Below, piece after piece: positions 1,640 to 20,242 of a DNA stretch of 20,267 nucleotides. This stretch comes from a virus. A model generated the notes under the pieces. The model did not search any database and was not told the DNA's origin. It worked only from the letters and a program-made list of their open reading frames with translations. Location: positions 1 to 20,267 of the IMG/VR virus record IMGVR_UViG_3300037193_000328; one strand, given 5' to 3'. The translations under genes and the position numbers were made by a program. Position 1 is the stretch's first letter; the number at the start of each line of letters is the position of its first letter.

Positions 1640-3299
1640 GCGCCCGGCCCTGTGGGGCTGCGAGGTCCCCCGCATCTGGACGCCGCCGCTGCGCGAGCTC
1701 ACCCCCGAGACGACCCTCGGGTACGAGGTCATCGAGTTCGCCGACGTCATCGGCGTCACCCTCATGCCCTGGCAGAAGTGGTTCCTCATCCACGCGCTCG
1801 AGCTGCGCCCCGACGGCACGTTCCGGTTCCGCAAGATCATTCTCCTGGTCGCCCGCCAGAACGGCAAGTCGACGCTCCTGCAGGTGCTCACCCTGTGGCG
1901 CATGTACGTCGACCGGTGCCGCCTGGTCATCGGGACCGCGCAGGACCTCGACACCGCCGAGGAGGTCTGGGAAGGCGCCGTCGAGCTGGCGCAGTCGGTC
2001 CCCGAACTGGCCGACGAGATCGCCCAGGTCCTCAAGGTCAACGGCAAGAAAACCCTCCGCCTCACCTCGGGAGAGCGGTACAAGGTCCGCGTCGCCAACC
2101 GCAAGGGCGGGCGCGGTCTCTCCGGTGAGCTCGTGCTCTTGGACGAGCTGCGCGAGCACCAGTCCTGGGACGCGTGGGCGGCGGTCACCAAGACTACGAA
2201 CGCGATGACCCGGGCGCAGATCATCGCCGCCTCCAACGCCGGTGACGCCTCCTCGATCGTCCTGCGCTACCTGCGGATGATCGCCCACCGCGCCTTGGGC
2301 GACCCCGACGGCATCTGCGAGGCCGACGGCGAGCTCGCCCCCGACCTCGACGACATCGAGAACGACTTCGACGACGTCGACGAGGACGACCAGGACGCGC
2401 TCGACGACGTCGACGAGTTCGACATGGACGAGTTCGAGGACGAGTTCGACGGCGACGACGGCCTCGGCCTGTTCGAATGGTCCGCCAAACCGGGCTGCCC
2501 CGTCTCCGATCGCGACGGGTGGGCCCAGGCCAACCCCGCCCTCGGCCACACCATCACCGAGCGCACCATCGCCTCCGACAGTCGCATCGACCCGGAGTGG
2601 ATCTTCCGCACCGAGGTGCTGTGCCAGTGGTCGAGCGGCGCCCTCGACGGGCCGTTCCCGCCCGGCGCCTGGGAGGCCGGCACCGACCCCGACTCCGCCC
2701 CCGCCGCCGACTCCACGGTCTCGCTGTGCGTCGACGTCTCCTGGGACCGCACCCGCGCCTACGTCGGTCTCGCGGCCTGGCGCGAGGACGGCACCCCGCA
2801 CGTGGAGATCATCGCGACCCGCACCGGCACCGACTGGGTGCCGCGCTGGCTGACCGCCCCCGACCGCGACCCGGCCGTGCGGGCCGCGTCGGTCGTCGTC
2901 CAGGCCGCCGGCGCCCCCGCGACCGGCCTCATCCCCGACCTGACCGCCGCCGGCGTCACCGTCATCCCATGGAAGGGATCGGACCTCGGCGGCGCCACCG
3001 GCGACTTCTACGACCGGGTCCGCAAGGCCGTCGCCGACCTCGACGAGGAGGACCTCGACGACGGCGAGGAGCCCGGCGAGGCGGTCCCCGGTGTCTGGCA
3101 CCGGCCCCAGCAGGTCCTCGACACCGCCGCCGCCACCGCCGCGGCCAAACCCCTCGCCGACTCCTGGGTCGTCGACCGGCGCAACTCGCCGAACGACGCC
3201 GCGCCGCTCATCGCCGTCATCGGCGCCCTGTGGGGCCTCAAGGGCTGGGAGCCCCCGGCCGAGTCCGCCTACGAGACAAGGGAGCTGGTGACCGTCTGA
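1593..3299 (+). CDS. terminase large subunit (TerL)
   Basis: This 568-residue protein is the DNA-packaging motor and nuclease. The N-terminal LMPWQ segment is at residues 57-61. The ATPase has a Walker A-type VARQNGKS at 86-93 and a Walker B VLLDE at 181-185, with D184 and E185 as the acidic pair. The nuclease domain begins with SLCVDVSWD (D381, a metal ligand of the RNase H-like fold) and runs to about 550. GWAQANPALG at 309-318 is a hallmark of this actinophage group. Residues 245-289 are an extraordinary run of Asp and Glu between ATPase and nuclease. A shorter acidic patch lies at 482-493. The GTG start at 1593 is chosen for its ribosome binding site. It pairs with the small subunit upstream and feeds the portal downstream. 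Confidence 0.95.
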   Translation: MAASRAFARSAKRRSKRPALWGCEVPRIWTPPLRELTPETTLGYEVIEFADVIGVTLMPWQKWFLIHALELRPDGTFRFRKIILLVARQNGKSTLLQVLTLWRMYVDRCRLVIGTAQDLDTAEEVWEGAVELAQSVPELADEIAQVLKVNGKKTLRLTSGERYKVRVANRKGGRGLSGELVLLDELREHQSWDAWAAVTKTTNAMTRAQIIAASNAGDASSIVLRYLRMIAHRALGDPDGICEADGELAPDLDDIENDFDDVDEDDQDALDDVDEFDMDEFEDEFDGDDGLGLFEWSAKPGCPVSDRDGWAQANPALGHTITERTIASDSRIDPEWIFRTEVLCQWSSGALDGPFPPGAWEAGTDPDSAPAADSTVSLCVDVSWDRTRAYVGLAAWREDGTPHVEIIATRTGTDWVPRWLTAPDRDPAVRAASVVVQAAGAPATGLIPDLTAAGVTVIPWKGSDLGGATGDFYDRVRKAVADLDEEDLDDGEEPGEAVPGVWHRPQQVLDTAAATAAAKPLADSWVVDRRNSPNDAAPLIAVIGALWGLKGWEPPAESAYETRELVTV

Positions 3300-3535: not shown

Positions 3536-5472
3536 TGGCCTTCGTCGTCTCCGCCGGATCGCTCACCAGCCTGGACCGGTCCCAGCTCCCGGCCCCGTAC
3601 ACGGTCCAGCTCGCCGAGGGCCTGTACCGCCACTACGACGAGATCTGGCGGACCCAGCCGGCCGTGCGCACCGTCGTCGGGTTCCTTGCCAGGAACGTCG
3701 CCCAGCTCGGCATCCAGGTGTTCCGGCGCCTGTCCGACACCGACCGCGAACGCCTCATCGACCACCCGCTCGCCCAGCTCCTGGCCAACCCGCAGCCCGG
3801 GTCCAAGGTCACCCGCTACCGGCTGCTCAACGCGTACGTGTCCGACCTGGGCATCTACGACTCCGCCGTCCTGGTCAAGATCAGAGGCGAGGCGGGGCGC
3901 CCGGCCGGCCTGGTCCGCATCCCGCCCTCCAAGGTCGAGCCGGTCGGCGACAACTGGCTGGTGACCGAGAAGTACCGCATCCGCGGCTCGCGCGGCTACC
4001 GCGACATCCCCGCCGAGGACGTCATGCACTCCTTCGGCTACCACCCCACCGACCCGCGCGTCGGCACACCGCCGATCGAGACGCTGCGCCGCATCCTCGC
4101 CGAGGAGCACGCCGCCAACACCTACCGCGAGCAGATGTGGCGCAACGGCGCCCGCGTCACCGGCTACATCGAACGCCCCAAGGACGCCCCCAACTGGTCC
4201 GATACGGCCCTCCAGCGGTTCTCCGCGGGCTGGCGGGCCCAGTACACCGGCACCGGCCCCGAGACCGGCGGGACGCCCGTCCTCGAGGACGGCATGAAGT
4301 TCGTGCAGGCGAGCTTCACTCCCAAGGACGCCGAATACATCTCCGCGCGCAAGCTCACCCGCGAGGAGGTCGCCTCGGCCTACTTCATCCCGCCGCCGAT
4401 GGTCGGGATCCTCGAGCACGCGACGTTCTCGAACATCCGCGAGCAGCACACGAACCTGTACCAGGACACCCTCGGCCCGATCATGAAGATGCTCAAAGAG
4501 GACATCGAGCTGCAACTGCTGCCCGACCTCGACGACGCCGCGGACGTCTACTGCGAGTTCAACCTCGACGAGAAGATGGCCGGGTCCTTCGAGGAGCAGG
4601 CCGCCGCGGCCTCGACCGCCGTCGGCGGGCCCTGGATGACCGTCAACGAGCAGCGCGCCCGCCGCAACCTGCCCGAGATCGAGGGCGGCGACGAGCTGAT
4701 CGTCCCCATGAACGTCACCGTCGGCGGCCAAGCCTCCCCTCGCGACTCGGCGCCGCCGCCGAAGGCCGGCGGGATCGGCCGCCGGGTCCGGTACGCGCAC
4801 ATCAAGGCTCGCGCCGACGACGAGGCCCCGGCCATGACCGCAATGCTCGCGCGGTTTTTCGAACGGCAGGGGAACGTCCTGGCCTCGGCGGTCGGGGCGG
4901 TCACCTCGCCCGCCGTCGACGCCGACGCCGTCTTCGACCTGCCCCGCTGGAACGGGGAGCTGGCGAAGGACCTGCTCGAGGTCGCCCTCGCCGTCACCGC
5001 CGCCGCCGGCCGCGCCGCCCTCGCCGGCCTCGGCCTGGACCCCGACGAGTTCGACGTGGGCTACTCGCTGCACTGGCTGGAGTCGCACGCCTCCGGCGTC
5101 GCCTCCCGCATCAACGCCACGACGCTCAAGCTGCTGACCGGCGCCCTGGCCGTCGAGGCCACCGCCGCCGCCGTCAAGGCCCTGTTCGCCGGGTTCGTCG
5201 AGCACCGCGCCGCGAACGAGGCCGCTGAGGAGGTCTCCGCCCTGTCCGGGTTCGCGACCGTCGAGGCCGCCAAGCGCGCCGGGACGCCCATGGCCAAGAC
5301 CTGGGTCGACCGCGCCGGCGACAACACGCGCCCCTCGCACGCCGCGCTCAACGGCGAGACCGTCGCCGTGACCGACCTGTTCTCGAACGGCGCCCGCTGG
5401 CCGGGCGATTCGCTCCTGCCGCCCGCCGAACGCGCGGGCTGCACCTGCGACATGGAGATTGGACCCGCCTGA
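3535..5472 (+). CDS. portal protein fused to MuF-type minor head domain
   Basis: The 645-residue product has two parts. Residues about 20-400 are an HK97-type portal, the dodecameric ring through which DNA enters the head. Recognisable segments include VRTVVGFLARNVAQLGIQVFRR, the FGYHPTDPRVGTPPIETLRR stretch, and the ARKLTREEVASAYFIPPPMVGI motif that typifies this family (these are split here only by naming). After a Pro-rich linker (about 415-425), residues 435-645 form a helical region. It ends in a MuF/minor-head signature: TWVDRAGDNTRPSHAALNG, then PGDSLLPPAERAGCTCD. MuF proteins bind the portal inside the head and are normally a separate gene. Start ATG 3535 overlaps the previous stop. 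No separate minor head gene follows, which supports a genuine fusion. Confidence 0.92.
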   Translation: MAFVVSAGSLTSLDRSQLPAPYTVQLAEGLYRHYDEIWRTQPAVRTVVGFLARNVAQLGIQVFRRLSDTDRERLIDHPLAQLLANPQPGSKVTRYRLLNAYVSDLGIYDSAVLVKIRGEAGRPAGLVRIPPSKVEPVGDNWLVTEKYRIRGSRGYRDIPAEDVMHSFGYHPTDPRVGTPPIETLRRILAEEHAANTYREQMWRNGARVTGYIERPKDAPNWSDTALQRFSAGWRAQYTGTGPETGGTPVLEDGMKFVQASFTPKDAEYISARKLTREEVASAYFIPPPMVGILEHATFSNIREQHTNLYQDTLGPIMKMLKEDIELQLLPDLDDAADVYCEFNLDEKMAGSFEEQAAAASTAVGGPWMTVNEQRARRNLPEIEGGDELIVPMNVTVGGQASPRDSAPPPKAGGIGRRVRYAHIKARADDEAPAMTAMLARFFERQGNVLASAVGAVTSPAVDADAVFDLPRWNGELAKDLLEVALAVTAAAGRAALAGLGLDPDEFDVGYSLHWLESHASGVASRINATTLKLLTGALAVEATAAAVKALFAGFVEHRAANEAAEEVSALSGFATVEAAKRAGTPMAKTWVDRAGDNTRPSHAALNGETVAVTDLFSNGARWPGDSLLPPAERAGCTCDMEIGPA

Positions 5473-6203
5473 TGCTCATCAAGACCCTGCCCGCGACCAT
5501 CAAGGCCGCCGGCGACGGCACCCCCGACGGTGTCGTCGAGGCCATCGTCGCCGCCTACAACACCGACGCCGTCGGCGACCGGATCATCCCCGGCGCGTTC
5601 GCCAAGACCCTCGCCGACTGGCAGGCGTCGGGCGACCCGATCCCCTACATCTGGTCGCACCAGCACCACGACCTCGACGCGCACATCGGCGAAGTCGTCG
5701 AGGCCAAGGAGATCGACGAGGGCCTGTACATCAAGGCGCAGCTCGACATGGAGGACCCCAAGGCCGCGAAGGTGTGGCGGCTGCTGAAGGGCCGCCGGGT
5801 CAAGAAGTTCAGCTTCGCGTACGAGATCAAGGCCGGCGCGTGGGTCGAGACCGAGGACGAGTCCTACTACGAGCTGCGCGAGCTGGGCCTGTTCGAAGTC
5901 GGGCCGACCCTGATTCCGGCCAACCCCGAGACCGAGCTGCTGGCCGCCAAGGGCGCACTCGACCACTCCGCCGCCGCCGGCGCCCGGCCTCCCGCCGCCG
6001 CCGTGCAGGCGCTGCACGACCAGACCTGCGGCCTGGGCGCCACGTGCGCCAAGTCCGAGGACACCACCGACACCGACCGCAAGGCCACGCGAGACGACGA
6101 TCCGGCCAAGGACGAGGCCCCCCAGGGTAAGTCCGAGGAGCCCCGTCGCAGCCCCGCCTCACTCGTGCTGTCGATCGACACCGAACTGATCGATACCCCA
6201 TAA
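5472..6203 (+). CDS. HK97-type prohead maturation protease
   Basis: This 243-residue serine protease of the HK97 gp4 (peptidase U35/S78) family cleaves the scaffold part of the capsid protein during head maturation. The protease domain covers about residues 8-160. VVEAIVAAYNTDAVGDRIIPGAF (about 21-43; read as two neighbouring strands) opens the fold. The catalytic histidine is probably H63 in WSHQHHD and the nucleophile S114 in KKFSFAYEI. GLFEVGPTLIPANPET (139-154) is the usual closing strand. Residues 165-243 are a charged, low-complexity tail rich in Asp, Glu and Lys that may be removed or serve as a scaffold tail. The ATG overlaps the portal stop by one base. The stop overlaps the strong ribosome binding site of the capsid gene. 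Confidence 0.92.
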   Translation: MLIKTLPATIKAAGDGTPDGVVEAIVAAYNTDAVGDRIIPGAFAKTLADWQASGDPIPYIWSHQHHDLDAHIGEVVEAKEIDEGLYIKAQLDMEDPKAAKVWRLLKGRRVKKFSFAYEIKAGAWVETEDESYYELRELGLFEVGPTLIPANPETELLAAKGALDHSAAAGARPPAAAVQALHDQTCGLGATCAKSEDTTDTDRKATRDDDPAKDEAPQGKSEEPRRSPASLVLSIDTELIDTP

Positions 6204-6217
6204 GGAGGGGCTCTCAC

Positions 6218-7492
6218 ATGAACAAGCTGCAGGAGCTGCAGGAGCGGCTCAAGGCCACCCTGACGCCGGCGCGCGACCTCGCGGCCAAGGCCGAGGCCGA
6301 GGGCCGCGACTTCACCGCCGACGAGCAGGCCGAGATCAAGAAGGCGCTCGACGCCGCCGCGGCCATCAAGGGCGACATCGCCAAGGTCAAGGACGACCAG
6401 GCCGTCCGGGACGCGCTGAAGTCCTTCGGCGACGACCTCGGCTTCGAGCCCGGCCGCGGCGGTGACGGCCCCGACCCGTCGGGCCTGATCGTCCCCAGCA
6501 AGAGCATCGGCACGCACTTCGTGGAGTCCGACGCCTACAAGGCCATGCTCGCCGCGGCCCCCAACGGCCGGTTCAGCGAGAAGGCCCGCGTCCAGTCCGC
6601 CCCGGTCGGGTTCAAGACCCTGATCACCGGTCTGGACAGCACTTCGGCCGGCGCCCTGGTCACGGCCGAGCGCACCAACATCTTCGAGATGCTCGGCCGC
6701 GCGCCCCTGACGATCCGCAACCTGATCTCGACGCGCCAGACCTCCTCGGACGCGGTCGAGTTCGTCCGCCAGACCTCGCGCGTGAACGCCGCGGCGCCGG
6801 TCGCCGAAGCGACGGCGACCACCGGCGCCAACGGCGTCAAGCCCGAGGGCGGGTTCGCCTTCGAGGTCGTCACCGAGAACGTCCGCACCCTCGCCGAGTG
6901 GATCCCCGCCACCAAGCGGGCCCTCTCCGACGCGGCGCAGCTGCGCGGCCTGATCGACGACGAGCTCCGCGGCGACCTCCTCGAACTCGAGGAGGAGCAG
7001 ATGCTCAACGGCACCGGCGCCGGTGAGAACCTTCGCGGCATCCTCCAGACCGCCGGCATCCAGACCCAGGCGTACTCGAACACGAACGCCGATGTGGACC
7101 CGCTGCTGGAGACCACGCTCAAGGCCAAGACCAAGGTGCGCACGGTGGGCCGGTCGACGCCGACGGCCTACATGCTCAACCCGGCCGACTTCGAGACGAT
7201 CCAGCTCGCCCGCATCGCGAAGAACCCCGCCAACGAAGCGATCGCCGGCGCCGTCCCGACTCTGCACGGCCTCCCGGTCGTCGAGTCCGAAGCGATCGCC
7301 GCCGGCACCGGCCTCGTCGGCGACTTCCGCCGGGCCGTGGTCTGGGACCGCGAGCAGGCGTCCATCACCGTCTCGGACTCGCACGCGGACTTCTTCATCC
7401 GCAACATGGTCGCGATCCTCGCCGAGGAGCGGCTCGCCTTCGGCGTCACCCGCCCCGCCGCGTTCGTCTCGATCGACCTGACCGCGCTGTGA
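6218..7492 (+). CDS. major capsid protein, HK97 fold
   Basis: The 424-residue shell protein follows a strong AAGGAGGGG (6202-6210), as expected for a highly made protein. Residues 1-70 are a charged coiled coil (MNKLQELQERLKATL... to ...KVKDDQAVRDALKSFG) of the delta-domain kind. This acts as built-in scaffold and is cut off by the protease, which explains why there is no separate scaffold gene. The capsid fold runs from about 85 to 424. Its features include NIFEMLGRAPLTIRNLIS, AEWIPATKRALSDAAQLRGLID, a segment around LNGTGAGENLRGIL, and the C-terminal FFIRNMVAILAEERLAFGV. All are typical of the Phage_capsid (HK97 gp5) family. I did not look for the Lys/Asn pair of covalent crosslinking, and it cannot be judged without a structure. 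Confidence 0.95.
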   Translation: MNKLQELQERLKATLTPARDLAAKAEAEGRDFTADEQAEIKKALDAAAAIKGDIAKVKDDQAVRDALKSFGDDLGFEPGRGGDGPDPSGLIVPSKSIGTHFVESDAYKAMLAAAPNGRFSEKARVQSAPVGFKTLITGLDSTSAGALVTAERTNIFEMLGRAPLTIRNLISTRQTSSDAVEFVRQTSRVNAAAPVAEATATTGANGVKPEGGFAFEVVTENVRTLAEWIPATKRALSDAAQLRGLIDDELRGDLLELEEEQMLNGTGAGENLRGILQTAGIQTQAYSNTNADVDPLLETTLKAKTKVRTVGRSTPTAYMLNPADFETIQLARIAKNPANEAIAGAVPTLHGLPVVESEAIAAGTGLVGDFRRAVVWDREQASITVSDSHADFFIRNMVAILAEERLAFGVTRPAAFVSIDLTAL

Positions 7493-7932
7493 GCCTGATG
7501 GGCGCGACGCCGCACCACTGCCCGCTGTGCAAGGCCGCCGGCCGCGCCTGCGGGGGGCCGAGCGGCGTCGTGCCCGTCGACGAGCGCATCGAAAGGAGCA
7601 AACCGACCATGACCGCACTCAAGCGCTACAACGTGACCGTGAACGGCTACGAGACCGTCATGCTGCTGACCGAGAAGGAGGCCGAGGCCCGGGGCGGCAA
7701 GCCCTACAAGCCCGCACCCGCGCGGCGCCAGTCCACCGACCAGTCGGCGCGCGTCGCCGAGCTCGAGGCCGACCTCGCCGCAGCCGAAGCCGAGAACGCG
7801 CGCCTGTCCGCCGAGCTCGAAGCCGCGCAGGCCGGCGGCGGCGATGGGGCACCGCCGGCCGACCCGGACGGGACCGAGTCCAAGGCCGCGCAGCCGCGGA
7901 ACAAGGCCCGCACCCCGCAGAACAAGGGGTAG
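7489..7932 (+). CDS. zinc-knuckle / coiled-coil protein after the capsid gene
   Basis: The 147-residue product starts at a GTG overlapping the capsid stop (GTGA); ATG 7498 is an alternative three codons on. Its N-terminus has CPLCKAAGRACGG (cysteines 11, 14 and 21), a knuckle-like motif. The middle, LKRYNVTVNGYETVMLLTEKEAEARGG (in two neighbouring pieces, about 44-70), is the conserved core of a small protein usual at this site in actinophages. Residues 84-112 form a heptad-like coiled coil (VAELEADLAAAEAENARLSA). The tail is basic and Pro/Gly-rich. An AAAGGAG at 7592-7598 precedes an in-frame ATG at 7609, so a shorter form without the cysteine part may also be made. The function is unknown; the place suggests a head or connector accessory role. 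Confidence 0.75.
   Translation: MSLMGATPHHCPLCKAAGRACGGPSGVVPVDERIERSKPTMTALKRYNVTVNGYETVMLLTEKEAEARGGKPYKPAPARRQSTDQSARVAELEADLAAAEAENARLSAELEAAQAGGGDGAPPADPDGTESKAAQPRNKARTPQNKG
7592..7598 (+). promoter_or_regulatory. internal ribosome binding site for a possible shorter product
   Basis: AAAGGAG stands about 10 bases ahead of the in-frame ATG at 7609 (TMTALKRY...). It is stronger than anything ahead of GTG 7489 or ATG 7498. It marks either the true start of the gene or a second start giving a 107-residue form without the cysteine motif. Confidence 0.45.
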
Positions 7933-16702: not shown

Positions 16703-16746
16703 CCACCGCAGCAGACCTCGCGCTGCATCCCGAGAGGAGGCCGCTC

Positions 16747-17631
16747 ATGGCCCGATGGCCTGACCTCGCCCAGTGGCGAGGCCCCAGCCCCAACAAGACC
16801 GCCAGCGGCCAGACCGAAGTCCGCGGCCTCGTCGTCCACATCGCCGCCGGCTGGTACGAGGGCACGATCTCCTGGCAGCGCAACGACGACTCGAACATCT
16901 CCTCGCACTTCATCGTCGGCCGGAACGGCCAGATTGCCCAGATGGTCGACACCGCCGACGCCGCCTGGACCCAGCGGTCGGGCAACGGCGAGTGGCTGTC
17001 GGTCGAATGCGAAGGCTTCACCGCGAGCGACAGCAAGAACCCCGGCGGCTGGGAGCGACTCTCCGACGCCCAGATCGACGCGGTCGCCCGCCTCCTCCTT
17101 CGCATCCACCAGGTCTACGGCGTGCCCCTCCAGACCACCACCTCACCCACCGGGCGGGGCCTGGGCCACCACTCCATGGGCGCCGACTGGGGCCACCGCG
17201 AATGCCCCGGCACCCCCATCATCCAGCAGAAACCCGCCATCGTCGCCAAGGCGCTGGCGCTCAAGAACGGAGACGACGACATGAGCTGGGACGAGAAACT
17301 CAAGACCATCCGCGGCCAGGGCGTCGGGTACTCGGATTCGGAGTGGTCGGCCGGATTCATGCTCGCCTCGAACCACTACTACACGCTGAAGCTCGGCAAC
17401 GACATCCTCGCCGAGCAGAAGGCCGCGCGCCTGCGCGAGGAGGCGATCCTCGCCGCCGTCAAGGGCCTCGACACCAAGGCCGTCATCGCCGCGGTGAACG
17501 CGGCCTCCGCCGCCGACGCGCAGCGCGACGCCGCGCTCCTGACCGAGCTCCAGGACCTCGCCGCCGGCGGCGCCACCGCCGAGCAGATCATCGACGCGCT
17601 CGCCGCCAAGCTCGCGGGCCGGACCGAGTAA
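16747..17631 (+). CDS. endolysin, N-acetylmuramoyl-L-alanine amidase
   Basis: The 294-residue enzyme cuts the bond between muramic acid and the peptide stem of peptidoglycan. The Amidase_2 domain covers about residues 20-175. H31 (VVHIAAG), H141 or H142 (GLGHHSMG) and C153 (HRECPG) are the expected zinc ligands. SSHFIVGRNGQIAQMVDTAD AAWT at 52-74 is the classic substrate-side strand. Residues 180-294 form a helical, Ala-rich region without a LysM or PG_binding_1 motif that I can see; it may bind the wall or mediate oligomerisation. There is no signal peptide, so release should depend on a holin. ATG 16747 follows GAGAGGAGG at 16732-16740. It opens the lysis cassette with two membrane proteins behind it. 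Confidence 0.92.
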   Translation: MARWPDLAQWRGPSPNKTASGQTEVRGLVVHIAAGWYEGTISWQRNDDSNISSHFIVGRNGQIAQMVDTADAAWTQRSGNGEWLSVECEGFTASDSKNPGGWERLSDAQIDAVARLLLRIHQVYGVPLQTTTSPTGRGLGHHSMGADWGHRECPGTPIIQQKPAIVAKALALKNGDDDMSWDEKLKTIRGQGVGYSDSEWSAGFMLASNHYYTLKLGNDILAEQKAARLREEAILAAVKGLDTKAVIAAVNAASAADAQRDAALLTELQDLAAGGATAEQIIDALAAKLAGRTE

Positions 17632-17636
17632 CCCGA

Positions 17637-17996
17637 ATGACCGTCGACCTCAACGCCCTGCTGACGCTCCTGCTGCTCCTGTCCGGCCTGATCGGCGCGC
17701 TGGTGGCCGCGTTCCTGCGCATCAAGAAGTGGGTCTCTGACGTCGCCAAGTCGTCGAGGGCCACGGCCGAGCAGCTCGAGACCACCGACGACAAGACCAT
17801 CGCCGACCACGTACAGGAATCGTCCCGAGAGATCGGGAGAATCAACGGCCACATCGAGAAGCTGATGAAGACCGCGCAGGAGAACCGCGACCGCTCGATC
17901 CGAGCGGAGACGCTCGCCGAGTCCGCTCACGTGCGCATCGACCGGCACCTGATGAACGACCACGGCGTCCACGTCACGCCGCAGTCCCACGAGTAG
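17637..17996 (+). CDS. DUF2746-like membrane/coiled-coil protein, probable holin partner
   Basis: The 119-residue product starts at ATG 17637, five bases after the endolysin stop. Residues 6-26 (NALLTLLLLLSGLIGALVAAF) form one membrane helix, followed by a basic stop (RIKKW). Residues 33-105 are a charged, coiled-coil-like cytoplasmic part, and the protein ends DRHLMNDHGVHVTPQSHE. One N-terminal membrane helix plus a helical tail, next to an amidase, is the layout of DUF2746-like lysis-cassette proteins of actinophages. A holin or holin-regulator role is likely but unproven. The ribosome binding site is poor, so translation is probably coupled to the endolysin gene. Confidence 0.75.
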   Translation: MTVDLNALLTLLLLLSGLIGALVAAFLRIKKWVSDVAKSSRATAEQLETTDDKTIADHVQESSREIGRINGHIEKLMKTAQENRDRSIRAETLAESAHVRIDRHLMNDHGVHVTPQSHE

Positions 17997-18101: not shown

Positions 18102-18359
18102 ATGTCCAGTGAACTGCGCACCGCCCTCTACGGCCTCATGGCCGCCATCCTCGGCGTCCTCTCCGCCGTCGGCTGGGTCAACGCCCAGGACGCCGCCGAG
18201 TACTCCGCAGCCGGCCTCGAAGCACTCACCGCCGCCGGCGCCATCATGGCCATGGTGAAGACCTGGAAGCAGCGCGGCGCCAAGGCCGTGATCACCATCG
18301 AGAACGCCGAGCGACTCGTCGACGCGCTCCAGGAGATCCAGCGGCGCGGGCTCCTCTAA
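18102..18359 (+). CDS. small two-helix membrane protein, probable holin
   Basis: The 85-residue product has a hydrophobic helix at about residues 7-24 (LYGLMAAILGVLSAVGWV). A short loop with acidic residues (NAQDAAEYS) leads to a second, more amphipathic helix at about 32-49 (GLEALTAAGAIMAMVKTW). It then has a charged tail with KQRGAKAVITIENAERLVDA. Two membrane helices with a short charged tail, placed after the endolysin, fit a holin (r1t-like size). ATG 18102 follows AAGGAG. An upstream in-frame ATG at 18063 has no ribosome binding site. It is the last gene before a strong terminator, so it ends the late operon. Confidence 0.75.
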   Translation: MSSELRTALYGLMAAILGVLSAVGWVNAQDAAEYSAAGLEALTAAGAIMAMVKTWKQRGAKAVITIENAERLVDALQEIQRRGLL

Positions 18360-18373
18360 CCGCAACCAAGCCG

Positions 18374-18407
18374 AAGGCGCCCCACCCACACCGGGTGGGG
18401 CGCCTTT
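18374..18407 (+). terminator. late operon terminator
   Basis: A perfect 14-bp stem (AAGGCGCCCCACCC at 18374-18387 with its complement at 18393-18406) encloses the five-base loop ACACC and ends in a short T run. It stands 14 bases after the last lysis gene. Its stem is nearly the same as that of the terminator at 19301-19333. Confidence 0.88.
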
Positions 18408-18437
18408 CGCGTGCGCGGGGACCGCACCGACGAGAAA

Positions 18438-18459
18438 GGGTCCGTTCTAGAACGGACCC
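18438..18459. repeat. perfect 22-bp palindrome (hairpin or operator)
   Basis: The two 11-base halves GGGTCCGTTCT and AGAACGGACCC are exact complements. As RNA it would form a 9-bp stem with a CTAG loop, with TTTT at 18465-18468, so it could be a second, back-up terminator. As DNA it has the symmetry of a repressor site ahead of the lipoprotein gene. The sequence does not decide between these. Confidence 0.6.
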
Positions 18460-18498
18460 CCGCCTTTTCGCGTGTGGGAACCGTACGGCCACATCCGG

Positions 18499-18514
18499 TC
18501 ACCCGATCGGGTGA
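18499..18514. promoter_or_regulatory. perfect 16-bp palindrome, candidate operator of the lipoprotein gene
   Basis: TCACCCGATCGGGTGA is an exact palindrome about 85 bases before the lipoprotein start and after both hairpins. It has no T run, so a terminator is unlikely. Its position between terminator and gene suits a binding site for a dimeric regulator. I found no convincing -35/-10 pair beside it, so this is a candidate only. Confidence 0.45.
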
Positions 18515-18599
18515 GAGTGGACGGTCTCCGCAACCGCGCGCCGCCGCGGCCCGTGTTGGGCCTGTTCCGCCCGCCCATCCGATCGAAAGGGCACGCCCA

Positions 18600-19289
18600 A
18601 TGAACACTCCCAAGCAGATCCGCCCCGCTGCCTGGTGGACGCTCGGCACCGCCGCAGCGGCCCTCGTCCTCGCCTGCTCCAGCCCCGGCACCGACAACTC
18701 CTCGTCGAGCGGCAGCGGCGACACCGAGGAGGGCGGCGACTGGTTCGCCGAGACCTATCCGGTCTTCGAGGTCGCCGAGCACACCGGCGACGGCGACGGC
18801 GTGATCGAGCTGCCCGACGGCGTCTCCGCCGCGATGGTCACCGCCACCCACGACGGGGACGCGAATTTCAGCGTCTCCGCGCTCGACGACGGCAACCAGC
18901 CCACCGGCGACCTCCTCGTGAACACCATCGGCGACTACACCGGCACTACCGCCCTGGGCATGCACGACCTCGGCAACCCGGCCACCACGCTCCAGGTCAC
19001 CGCCGCCGGCGCCTGGACGATCACCCTCGCGCCCCTCGCAGACGCGCCCGCGCTGGCCGAGTCCGGCGAAGGCGACGGCGTGTTCCGGTACGAAGGCGGC
19101 GCGGCCACATGGAACGTCACCCACGACGGCGACGCGAACTTCGTCGTCAGCTACTACACCGGCGCCGACTTCGAGATGTCGCTGCTGATCAACGAGATCG
19201 GCGCCTACGAGGGGTCGATCGCCGCCACCGAGGGCCCCGGCCTCGTCGTCATCAACGCCGACGGCGCGTGGACCCTCACCGCCGCATAG
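18600..19289 (+). CDS. lipoprotein with two tandem repeat domains (moron-like)
   Basis: The 229-residue product has a lipoprotein signal: basic N-terminus, hydrophobic stretch (about 11-25) and lipobox LVLA-C with C26. A Ser/Gly-rich linker and an acidic stretch follow. Two related domains come next, at residues about 62-146 and 154-228. Shared motifs are THDGDANF (83-90 and 174-181), LLVNTIGDYTG (105-115) against LLINEIGAYEG (195-205), and AAGAWTI against NADGAWTL. The mature form should be anchored outside the host membrane. ATG 18600 has GAAAGGG about 9 bases upstream. It stands alone between two terminators after the lysis genes, the usual arrangement of a moron expressed in the lysogen. 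A role in surface change or superinfection exclusion is inference. Confidence 0.85.
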   Translation: MNTPKQIRPAAWWTLGTAAAALVLACSSPGTDNSSSSGSGDTEEGGDWFAETYPVFEVAEHTGDGDGVIELPDGVSAAMVTATHDGDANFSVSALDDGNQPTGDLLVNTIGDYTGTTALGMHDLGNPATTLQVTAAGAWTITLAPLADAPALAESGEGDGVFRYEGGAATWNVTHDGDANFVVSYYTGADFEMSLLINEIGAYEGSIAATEGPGLVVINADGAWTLTAA

Positions 19290-19300
19290 AGCGCACAGCG

Positions 19301-19333
19301 AAGGCGCCCCACCGATCCGGTGGGGCGCCTTTT
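19301..19333. terminator. bidirectional terminator between convergent genes
   Basis: A perfect 14-bp stem (AAGGCGCCCCACCG at 19301-19314 with its complement at 19318-19331) has the three-base loop ATC. T19330-T19333 follow on the + strand. It lies between the lipoprotein gene and the end of the minus-strand gene, so it can serve both. The first 13 bases of each arm are the same as those of the terminator at 18374, apart from the last base. Confidence 0.85.
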
Positions 19334-19345
19334 GGCGTGCCCGGG

Positions 19346-20242
19346 TCAGGCCGGAACGGGCGGAACCGGGCCGGAAACCTGCTCGTCCTCCTCGTCGCCG
19401 GCGCGGACCATGTGGGCGAGGGCGGCGCCCATGCCGAGCACGGCGACCGGGAGGCACGCGACCCCGGCCGTGATCCACCACGGGGCCGCGGTGACGCCCG
19501 CGGCGACCATCACGTGATAGGCGACCTGGCCGAGCGCTCCGACGGCGAGAGCGATGATCGTGGAGGCGCGGGCCATCCGCAGCGCACGCGCGGGCGCGCG
19601 CCCCGACAGCCACACGTACATCGCGTACGCTGCGTACACCTCCATGCCGATCGGCAACGTGATCGCCGAGTTGATCTCGAAGTCGTCGACGATTCCCGGC
19701 AGCGGGCGCACGGGACCGAACCCGGCGAGGCCGCCGAGGCCGACCCACCCCGACCAGATCGCGACTGTGGCCGGGAGCATCAGCAACGCGATCGGCCACA
19801 CCACCGGCCGCTTTCGAGCAGGCGCCGTTCCGTCCGCGTTCCGCTCCGGTTCCGCCGGTACCGCGGCGACCGGTTCCGCCTCGACGGCCGCCGGGGCCGA
19901 CGGCGCCGAGGCCGCCGGAGGGGTGACGCTCGGTGGCAGCGACCGCTCCTCGGCCGCCGCGGGTGTCGTCTCGTTCCGGTCGTTCCGGCCCGGTTCCGGC
20001 CGTTCCGGTTCCGGCCGTTCCGGCGCCGACTGCGGCGACGTCCCGCCGGTCTTCTCGTCGAGGATCTCGCGGATGCGGGCCCGGCCCCACGAGTCGGTGA
20101 GCCCGAAGTGCTCACCGAGTTCGAGTCCGCTCATGCGGTGCCCGAGCGCGAGGCTCGCCAGGAAGATCCGGCGCGCCTCCTCCCTCGTCTCCTCGGTGGT
20201 GCGCTGGCGCGTGGTGCGCGCGGGAGTCATCGTGTCTACCAT
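19346..20242 (-). CDS. winged-helix plus four-helix membrane protein, Spd/DUF2637-like
   Basis: This minus-strand gene encodes 298 residues. Residues 20-62 (EEARRIFLASLALGHRMSG, LELGEHFGLTDSWGRARIRE) resemble a small winged-helix module. Residues 68-145 are a Pro/Ala/Glu-rich linker containing ERPEPERPEPGR. Four membrane helices follow at about 149-173, 189-212, 224-249 and 255-279. Segments INSAITLPIGMEVYAAYAMY and LGQVAYHVMVAAG are, as I recall, typical of Spd-type (DUF2637-like) proteins of Streptomyces conjugative plasmids and integrative elements. In those elements they are linked to spread between hyphae. ATG 20242 is supported by AGGAG at 20254-20250 on the minus strand, seven bases away. 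It converges on the lipoprotein gene. A role here in regulation or transfer is unproven. Confidence 0.75.
   Translation of the reverse strand: MVDTMTPARTTRQRTTEETREEARRIFLASLALGHRMSGLELGEHFGLTDSWGRARIREILDEKTGGTSPQSAPERPEPERPEPGRNDRNETTPAAAEERSLPPSVTPPAASAPSAPAAVEAEPVAAVPAEPERNADGTAPARKRPVVWPIALLMLPATVAIWSGWVGLGGLAGFGPVRPLPGIVDDFEINSAITLPIGMEVYAAYAMYVWLSGRAPARALRMARASTIIALAVGALGQVAYHVMVAAGVTAAPWWITAGVACLPVAVLGMGAALAHMVRAGDEEDEQVSGPVPPVPA
19992..20021 (-). repeat. two perfect 15-bp tandem repeats in the linker of the minus-strand gene
   Basis: GGTTCCGGCCGTTCC occurs twice in a row on the + strand (19992-20006, 20007-20021). It encodes the repeated ERPEP block of the linker. The unit is a multiple of three, so copy number changes keep the frame. 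Confidence 0.75.

Follow-up and report, generated by a model that had tools for sequence, protein, structure and literature searches.

The window, by which we mean the whole stretch of DNA analysed here, is a complete IMG/VR record of 20,267 bp that encodes tailed-phage proteins, namely terminase, portal, capsid, tape measure, endolysin, a small membrane protein and holin. Neither tRNA genes nor an integrase or repressor gene were identified in the window, which is a fragment of a phage genome. Because the records of two relatives carry a tyrosine integrase, the group to which this phage belongs is probably temperate. Identification of the host or the phage through nucleotide similarity was abandoned since the window yielded only two weak matches, both from Streptomyces phages and both to the endolysin. 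The region of interest lies behind the lysis cassette, with endolysin and holin just upstream as the preliminary description had placed it, and comprises the following features:

16744–17631, + strand: endolysin (N-acetylmuramoyl-L-alanine amidase, Amidase_2; PF01510, E=1.4e-19; PHROG endolysins)
17637–17996, + strand: small membrane protein of the lysis region (phrog_9090 membrane protein, E=3e-6)
18102–18359, + strand: holin, which closes the rightward late operon (weak holin matches to phrog_565/526, E=1e-4 to 5e-4)
18374–18406, + strand: terminator T1 at the end of the late operon, stem AAGGCGCCCCACCC, loop ACACC
18434–18467, + strand: T3, a palindrome with flanking AAA/TTTT, terminator-like and bulged
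18499–18514, strand not given: 16-bp palindrome TCACCCGATCGGGTGA, a possible operator or a product of chance
18600–19289, + strand: gene for a lipoprotein of 229 aa with two beta-rich domains in tandem, putative accessory cargo
19301–19331, + strand: terminator T2, stem AAGGCGCCCCACCG, loop ATC, separating the lipoprotein gene from the convergent leftward gene
19346–20242, − strand: convergent gene running leftward and encoding a putative multi-pass membrane protein of 298 aa, the conserved neighbour that marks the junction

Two near-identical terminators had been proposed to bracket a single lipoprotein gene and to differ mainly in loop and closing base, and both hairpins were recovered at these places. 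In full, T1 reads AAGGCGCCCCACCC-acacc-GGGTGGGGCGCCTT and T2 reads AAGGCGCCCCACCG-atc-CGGTGGGGCGCCTT. Each contains 14 perfect pairs, 13 of which are identical and form the common stem AAGGCGCCCCACC, so they differ only in the loop and in the closing pair, which is C-G or G-C. Their predicted folds are stable (−36.5 kcal/mol, z −5.0 for T1; −38.0 kcal/mol, z −6.6 for T2, both against dinucleotide shuffles). Within the window the stem 13-mer is confined to T1 and T2, and no further copy was found when up to two mismatches were allowed. A strict scan of the window for E. coli-type terminators listed neither hairpin because their T-runs (TTT and TTTT) are only three and four bases long; short T-runs are common at terminators of high-G+C organisms. 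The lipoprotein gene and T2 are 11 bp apart, and 14 bp lie between T2 and the end of the convergent gene. The only Rfam matches, to P11 and mir-2060, fell far under the gathering scores and were dismissed as chance.

Between the terminators, two perfect palindromes were expected from the preliminary description and were found. The longer one (22 bp, GGGTCCGTTCTAGAACGGACCC, 18438–18459) forms the core of T3 (−19.7 kcal/mol, z −2.5), and a palindrome of such length occurred in none of 60 Markov sequences. For the 16-bp palindrome, about one of that length is expected by chance per window; it is not repeated in the window, a search for it in relatives was negative, and its reading as an operator was rejected. 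The 3′ flanks of T1, T3 and T2 have GCCTTT(T)nGCGTG in common (18402–18492 and 19327–19350), and T1 and T3 are alike over about 26 nt 3′ of their stems despite the different stems (window-pair P 0.002).

The lipoprotein ORF is preceded by an RBS-like GAAAGGG, and its translation contains a signal peptide in which R8 and a hydrophobic stretch are followed by the lipobox LVLA-C26, assessed by eye with PROSITE rule PS00013. Its tandem domains repeat the motif THDGDANF...LLVNxIGxYxG. Neither this protein nor the product of the leftward gene matched a family above cut-off in Pfam, NCBIfam, PHROGs or PADLOC. A single-sequence structure model of the lipoprotein reached a mean pLDDT of 59, and comparison with the PDB (best match TM 0.41, the majority under 0.3) was uninformative beyond indicating two beta-rich domains. 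The lipoprotein was missing from 25 related phage records and from the viral-contig scan. A search for relatives in phages gave only three distant matches, which lie in two gut phage sequences that lack annotation and in a virus of haloarchaea. Relatives were identified in 27 of 395 actinobacterial genomes, and the best of them (45–50%) align through C-terminal parts of larger host membrane proteins, which suggests that a cell-surface domain was taken up from host genomes. The one host relative tested with Pfam (L124) has a TM2 domain; the host proteins L123–L126 combine TM2 (by eye for the other three) with the same tandem beta-rich domain, for which no Pfam model scored above cut-off. The G+C content of the lipoprotein gene by codon position (0.64/0.53/0.95) is like that of other phage genes, and the gene thus bears no mark of recent import.

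The same junction was compared in three relatives, whose leftward genes are 67% (L151), 63% (L152) and 32% (L085) identical to that of the window. In the nearest relative by capsid (82%; L006, read as L085), the holin (7235–7588) is followed by one hairpin (7643–7678, beginning AAAGGCGCCCACCC) and then by the leftward gene, which ends at 7691. L151, found via its leftward gene, likewise contains the holin, one hairpin and the leftward gene, and the lipoprotein gene is present in neither. L152, found via its endolysin (68%), has neither the lipoprotein gene nor such a hairpin at this junction. Because the junctions of L085 and L151 have one terminator and no gene, the lipoprotein gene together with one or two terminators may represent either a gain in the lineage of the window or a loss in the others. 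The cassette character that had been attributed to this part of the window is supported by the comparison. Unrelated terminators in related phages had been named as evidence against the proposal; the single terminators indeed differ in sequence, yet their style is similar (AAGGCGCCCACCC in L085, GCGCCCCGCCTCC in L151). The distance from the T-run to the convergent gene is similar for T2 and the L085 hairpin, which hints that T2 may be the ancestral copy, although the L085 hairpin can be aligned to T1 about as well as to T2. Collagen-like Gly-X-Y proteins are encoded between the endolysin and the holin region in L151 (reverse complement, 4803–5501) and L152 (7216–7761) and are absent from the window.

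Taken together, we consider it probable that a moron-like accessory cassette was gained at the junction between the late operon and the leftward gene and that the twin stems arose by duplication or recombination. In the ancestral state, a single terminator would have separated the end of the rightward late and lysis operon from the convergent leftward gene, and a surface lipoprotein gene with an extra terminator would have been inserted there in the phage of the window. T1, probably backed by T3, would end late transcription after the holin, and T2 would halt the lipoprotein transcript ahead of the convergent gene. Since T1/T3 and T2 would insulate the lipoprotein gene, it should need its own promoter within 130 bp upstream; no sigma-70-type promoter was recognised there, and promoters of actinobacteria and their phages may differ from that type. 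We infer that the gene is expressed in the lysogen. For its product we predict export and lipid anchoring on the host cell, where it probably helps the host or excludes other phages during lysogeny. The near-identity of T1 and T2 would most likely reflect one terminator that was duplicated or recombined when the cassette was gained, and recombination between the two could delete the gene and keep a single terminator, as in the relatives.

That the matched ends arose by duplication, as first suggested, agrees with the rarity of the stem, the sharing of 13 nt and the matching 3′ flanks, but not with the 5′ flanks. The 3′ flanks of T1 and T2 are identical at 10 of 12 positions, a match reached in 0.35% of random window pairs (alignment P ~0.008). 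The 5′ flanks show no significant likeness, and a duplication spanning them was tested and found to be absent. Among 40 hairpins from 24 phage records, only two within-phage pairs share 13 nt, that of the window and one in G006, and the others share at most 7. Alternatively, T1 and T2 could be independent high-G+C terminators that converged on the same stem through composition and selection for strong GC stems, a reading that would retain the gene insertion, render the twin stems meaningless and which we regard as unlikely. It accommodates the unrelated 5′ flanks and the occurrence of the exact stem alone in unrelated organisms: a search of 257 Gb of genomes found the exact double stem at 15 sites, mostly in diverse Actinobacteria, and one other viral contig, from an unrelated phage (L089), has it too, suggesting that it can arise independently, if rarely. 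It would also fit three neighbouring terminators with a common 9-nt stem in the streptomycete-sized genome G208. However, two host genomes contain about one such hairpin per 50 kb (16 in 0.8 Mb), which together with the 15 exact stems in 257 Gb gives a rough estimate of ~1e-5 or less for the chance of this stem at a given terminator; moreover, 13-nt sharing is nearly absent from hairpin pairs between phages, and convergence would have to account for the 3′ flanks as well. As the exact stem is rare and the 3′ flanks match, duplication or recombination was judged to be about three times likelier than convergence. The G208 triple lies within 2.5 kb of a 7.4-Mb bacterial chromosome (L183, 14921–17400; stem GGGCCCGGC) and is a bacterial parallel to the twin terminators.

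Phages related to the window offer further cases of exchangeable genes enclosed by matched terminators. The capsid-related G006 matches Arthrobacter phage Abidatro, in which the hairpins AAAGGGCCCCGAGTC and AGGGCCCCGAGTC, 899 bp apart, surround accessory genes that point leftward and lie next to the integrase, with repeats of a 42-bp promoter-like element upstream of the cassettes. G007 is 88–94% identical to G006 over most of the compared region but has only one hairpin, and its genes between the shared ends are different. Chickaboom and Jamun carry the same terminator pair as Abidatro. In Renna12 and Leona, one hairpin with the same stem start occupies the second position, and Renna12 has another of the same style, so that the full pair is present in three of these five phages; PhluffyCoco has no hairpin above the limit. 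The 42-bp element is repeated in all these Arthrobacter phages. This recurrence supports in kind the proposal of the preliminary description that the twin stems serve as homologous sites for swapping accessory genes, and a swapping model is plausible for this phage group by analogy with the same layout in the Arthrobacter phages.

For the window itself, we find it doubtful, more so than convergence, that the twin terminators are active exchange sites at which homologous recombination swaps single genes, including with co-infecting phages. Such a role would agree with the near-identical AGGGCCCCGAGTC terminators and 42-bp repeats around the integrase-side cassettes of Abidatro, Chickaboom and Jamun, with the other cargo of G007 next to its one terminator copy, and with the empty layout in relatives of the window. 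On the other hand, a search among these relatives for the same stem around other single genes found none, nor any exchange of cargo; the repeats are only about 30 bp and inverted, and identical stems of 13–14 bp are short for homologous recombination, which speaks against this part of the original proposal. No repeated promoter segment was found in the window either, and a 20-bp match of the upstream region to G030, made up of G and C alone, was put down to low complexity. Expression of the lipoprotein as a late lytic gene (e.g. for lysis timing or a late superinfection block), through a leaky or antiterminated T1 and T3, is highly improbable: the gene lies on the strand of the holin and directly behind it, no promoter was recognised and the U-tracts are short, but two hairpins, one of them very stable, and a 240-bp gap in contrast to a tightly packed late operon separate it from the holin, and no relative shares it.

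The favoured gain of a moron-like cassette can be compared with known systems. The ltp gene of Streptococcus thermophilus phage TP-J34 is a moron gene for a lipoprotein that acts in superinfection exclusion (PMC3952083). Similar to morons, the gene in the window is a single extra gene between conserved phage genes, is absent from relatives, has its own terminator (T2) and encodes a surface lipoprotein as cargo. Unlike morons, it has no recognised promoter and its product matched none of the four family collections above cut-off; its codon-position G+C is not atypical, whereas atypical base composition is common, though not required, in morons. Since relatives have one terminator and no gene at the junction, it is in all probability an accessory gene that was gained recently and belongs to a generally known kind.

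The exchange-site reading was modelled on a proposal for T4-type phages, in which promoter/stem-loop mobile regulatory cassettes (PeSL) were reportedly described by Arbiol in 2010 and Comeau in 2014. The window resembles these in its repeated terminator stem-loops at the ends of an accessory gene. It differs in that only the stem-loop, and no promoter, is repeated, in that it belongs to a high-G+C phage of a probably temperate group rather than to a T4-type phage, and in that its relatives hold no different cargo between such stems, a change of cargo being seen only in the Arthrobacter phages. With the integrase-side cassettes of Abidatro, Chickaboom, Jamun, Renna12 and Leona, the window shares near-identical or same-style hairpins that bracket small genes about 0.9 kb apart, but its stem sequence is different, its site is not beside an integrase and it lacks the repeated 42-bp promoter-like element. 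As a tentative generalisation that we hold possible rather than probable, near-identical terminator stems particular to each lineage may serve temperate actinophages as shared joints for the gain, loss and exchange of accessory genes, whether or not a promoter is repeated as well. If so, these joints would be a high-G+C counterpart of the T4 PeSL, and the window would be the minimal, terminator-only case.

The junction, empty in the relatives and filled in the window, offers a clear before-and-after view of a probably temperate actinophage acquiring a single gene for the host surface, gene gain as such being already known. The lipoprotein is a candidate for a factor in lysogeny or exclusion, and the link to the Arthrobacter phages makes the exchange idea testable with sequenced isolates. 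The region searched in these phages matches 39 phage records, and the 42-bp element, CAATACACGCCTAACCGTGCTAAACTTAGAGAGTCAGCAAGG, is present in two to three copies (L200, which is G006 20001–39122, at 1783–3090; L202, which is G007, at 2030–2842; and L241–L246).
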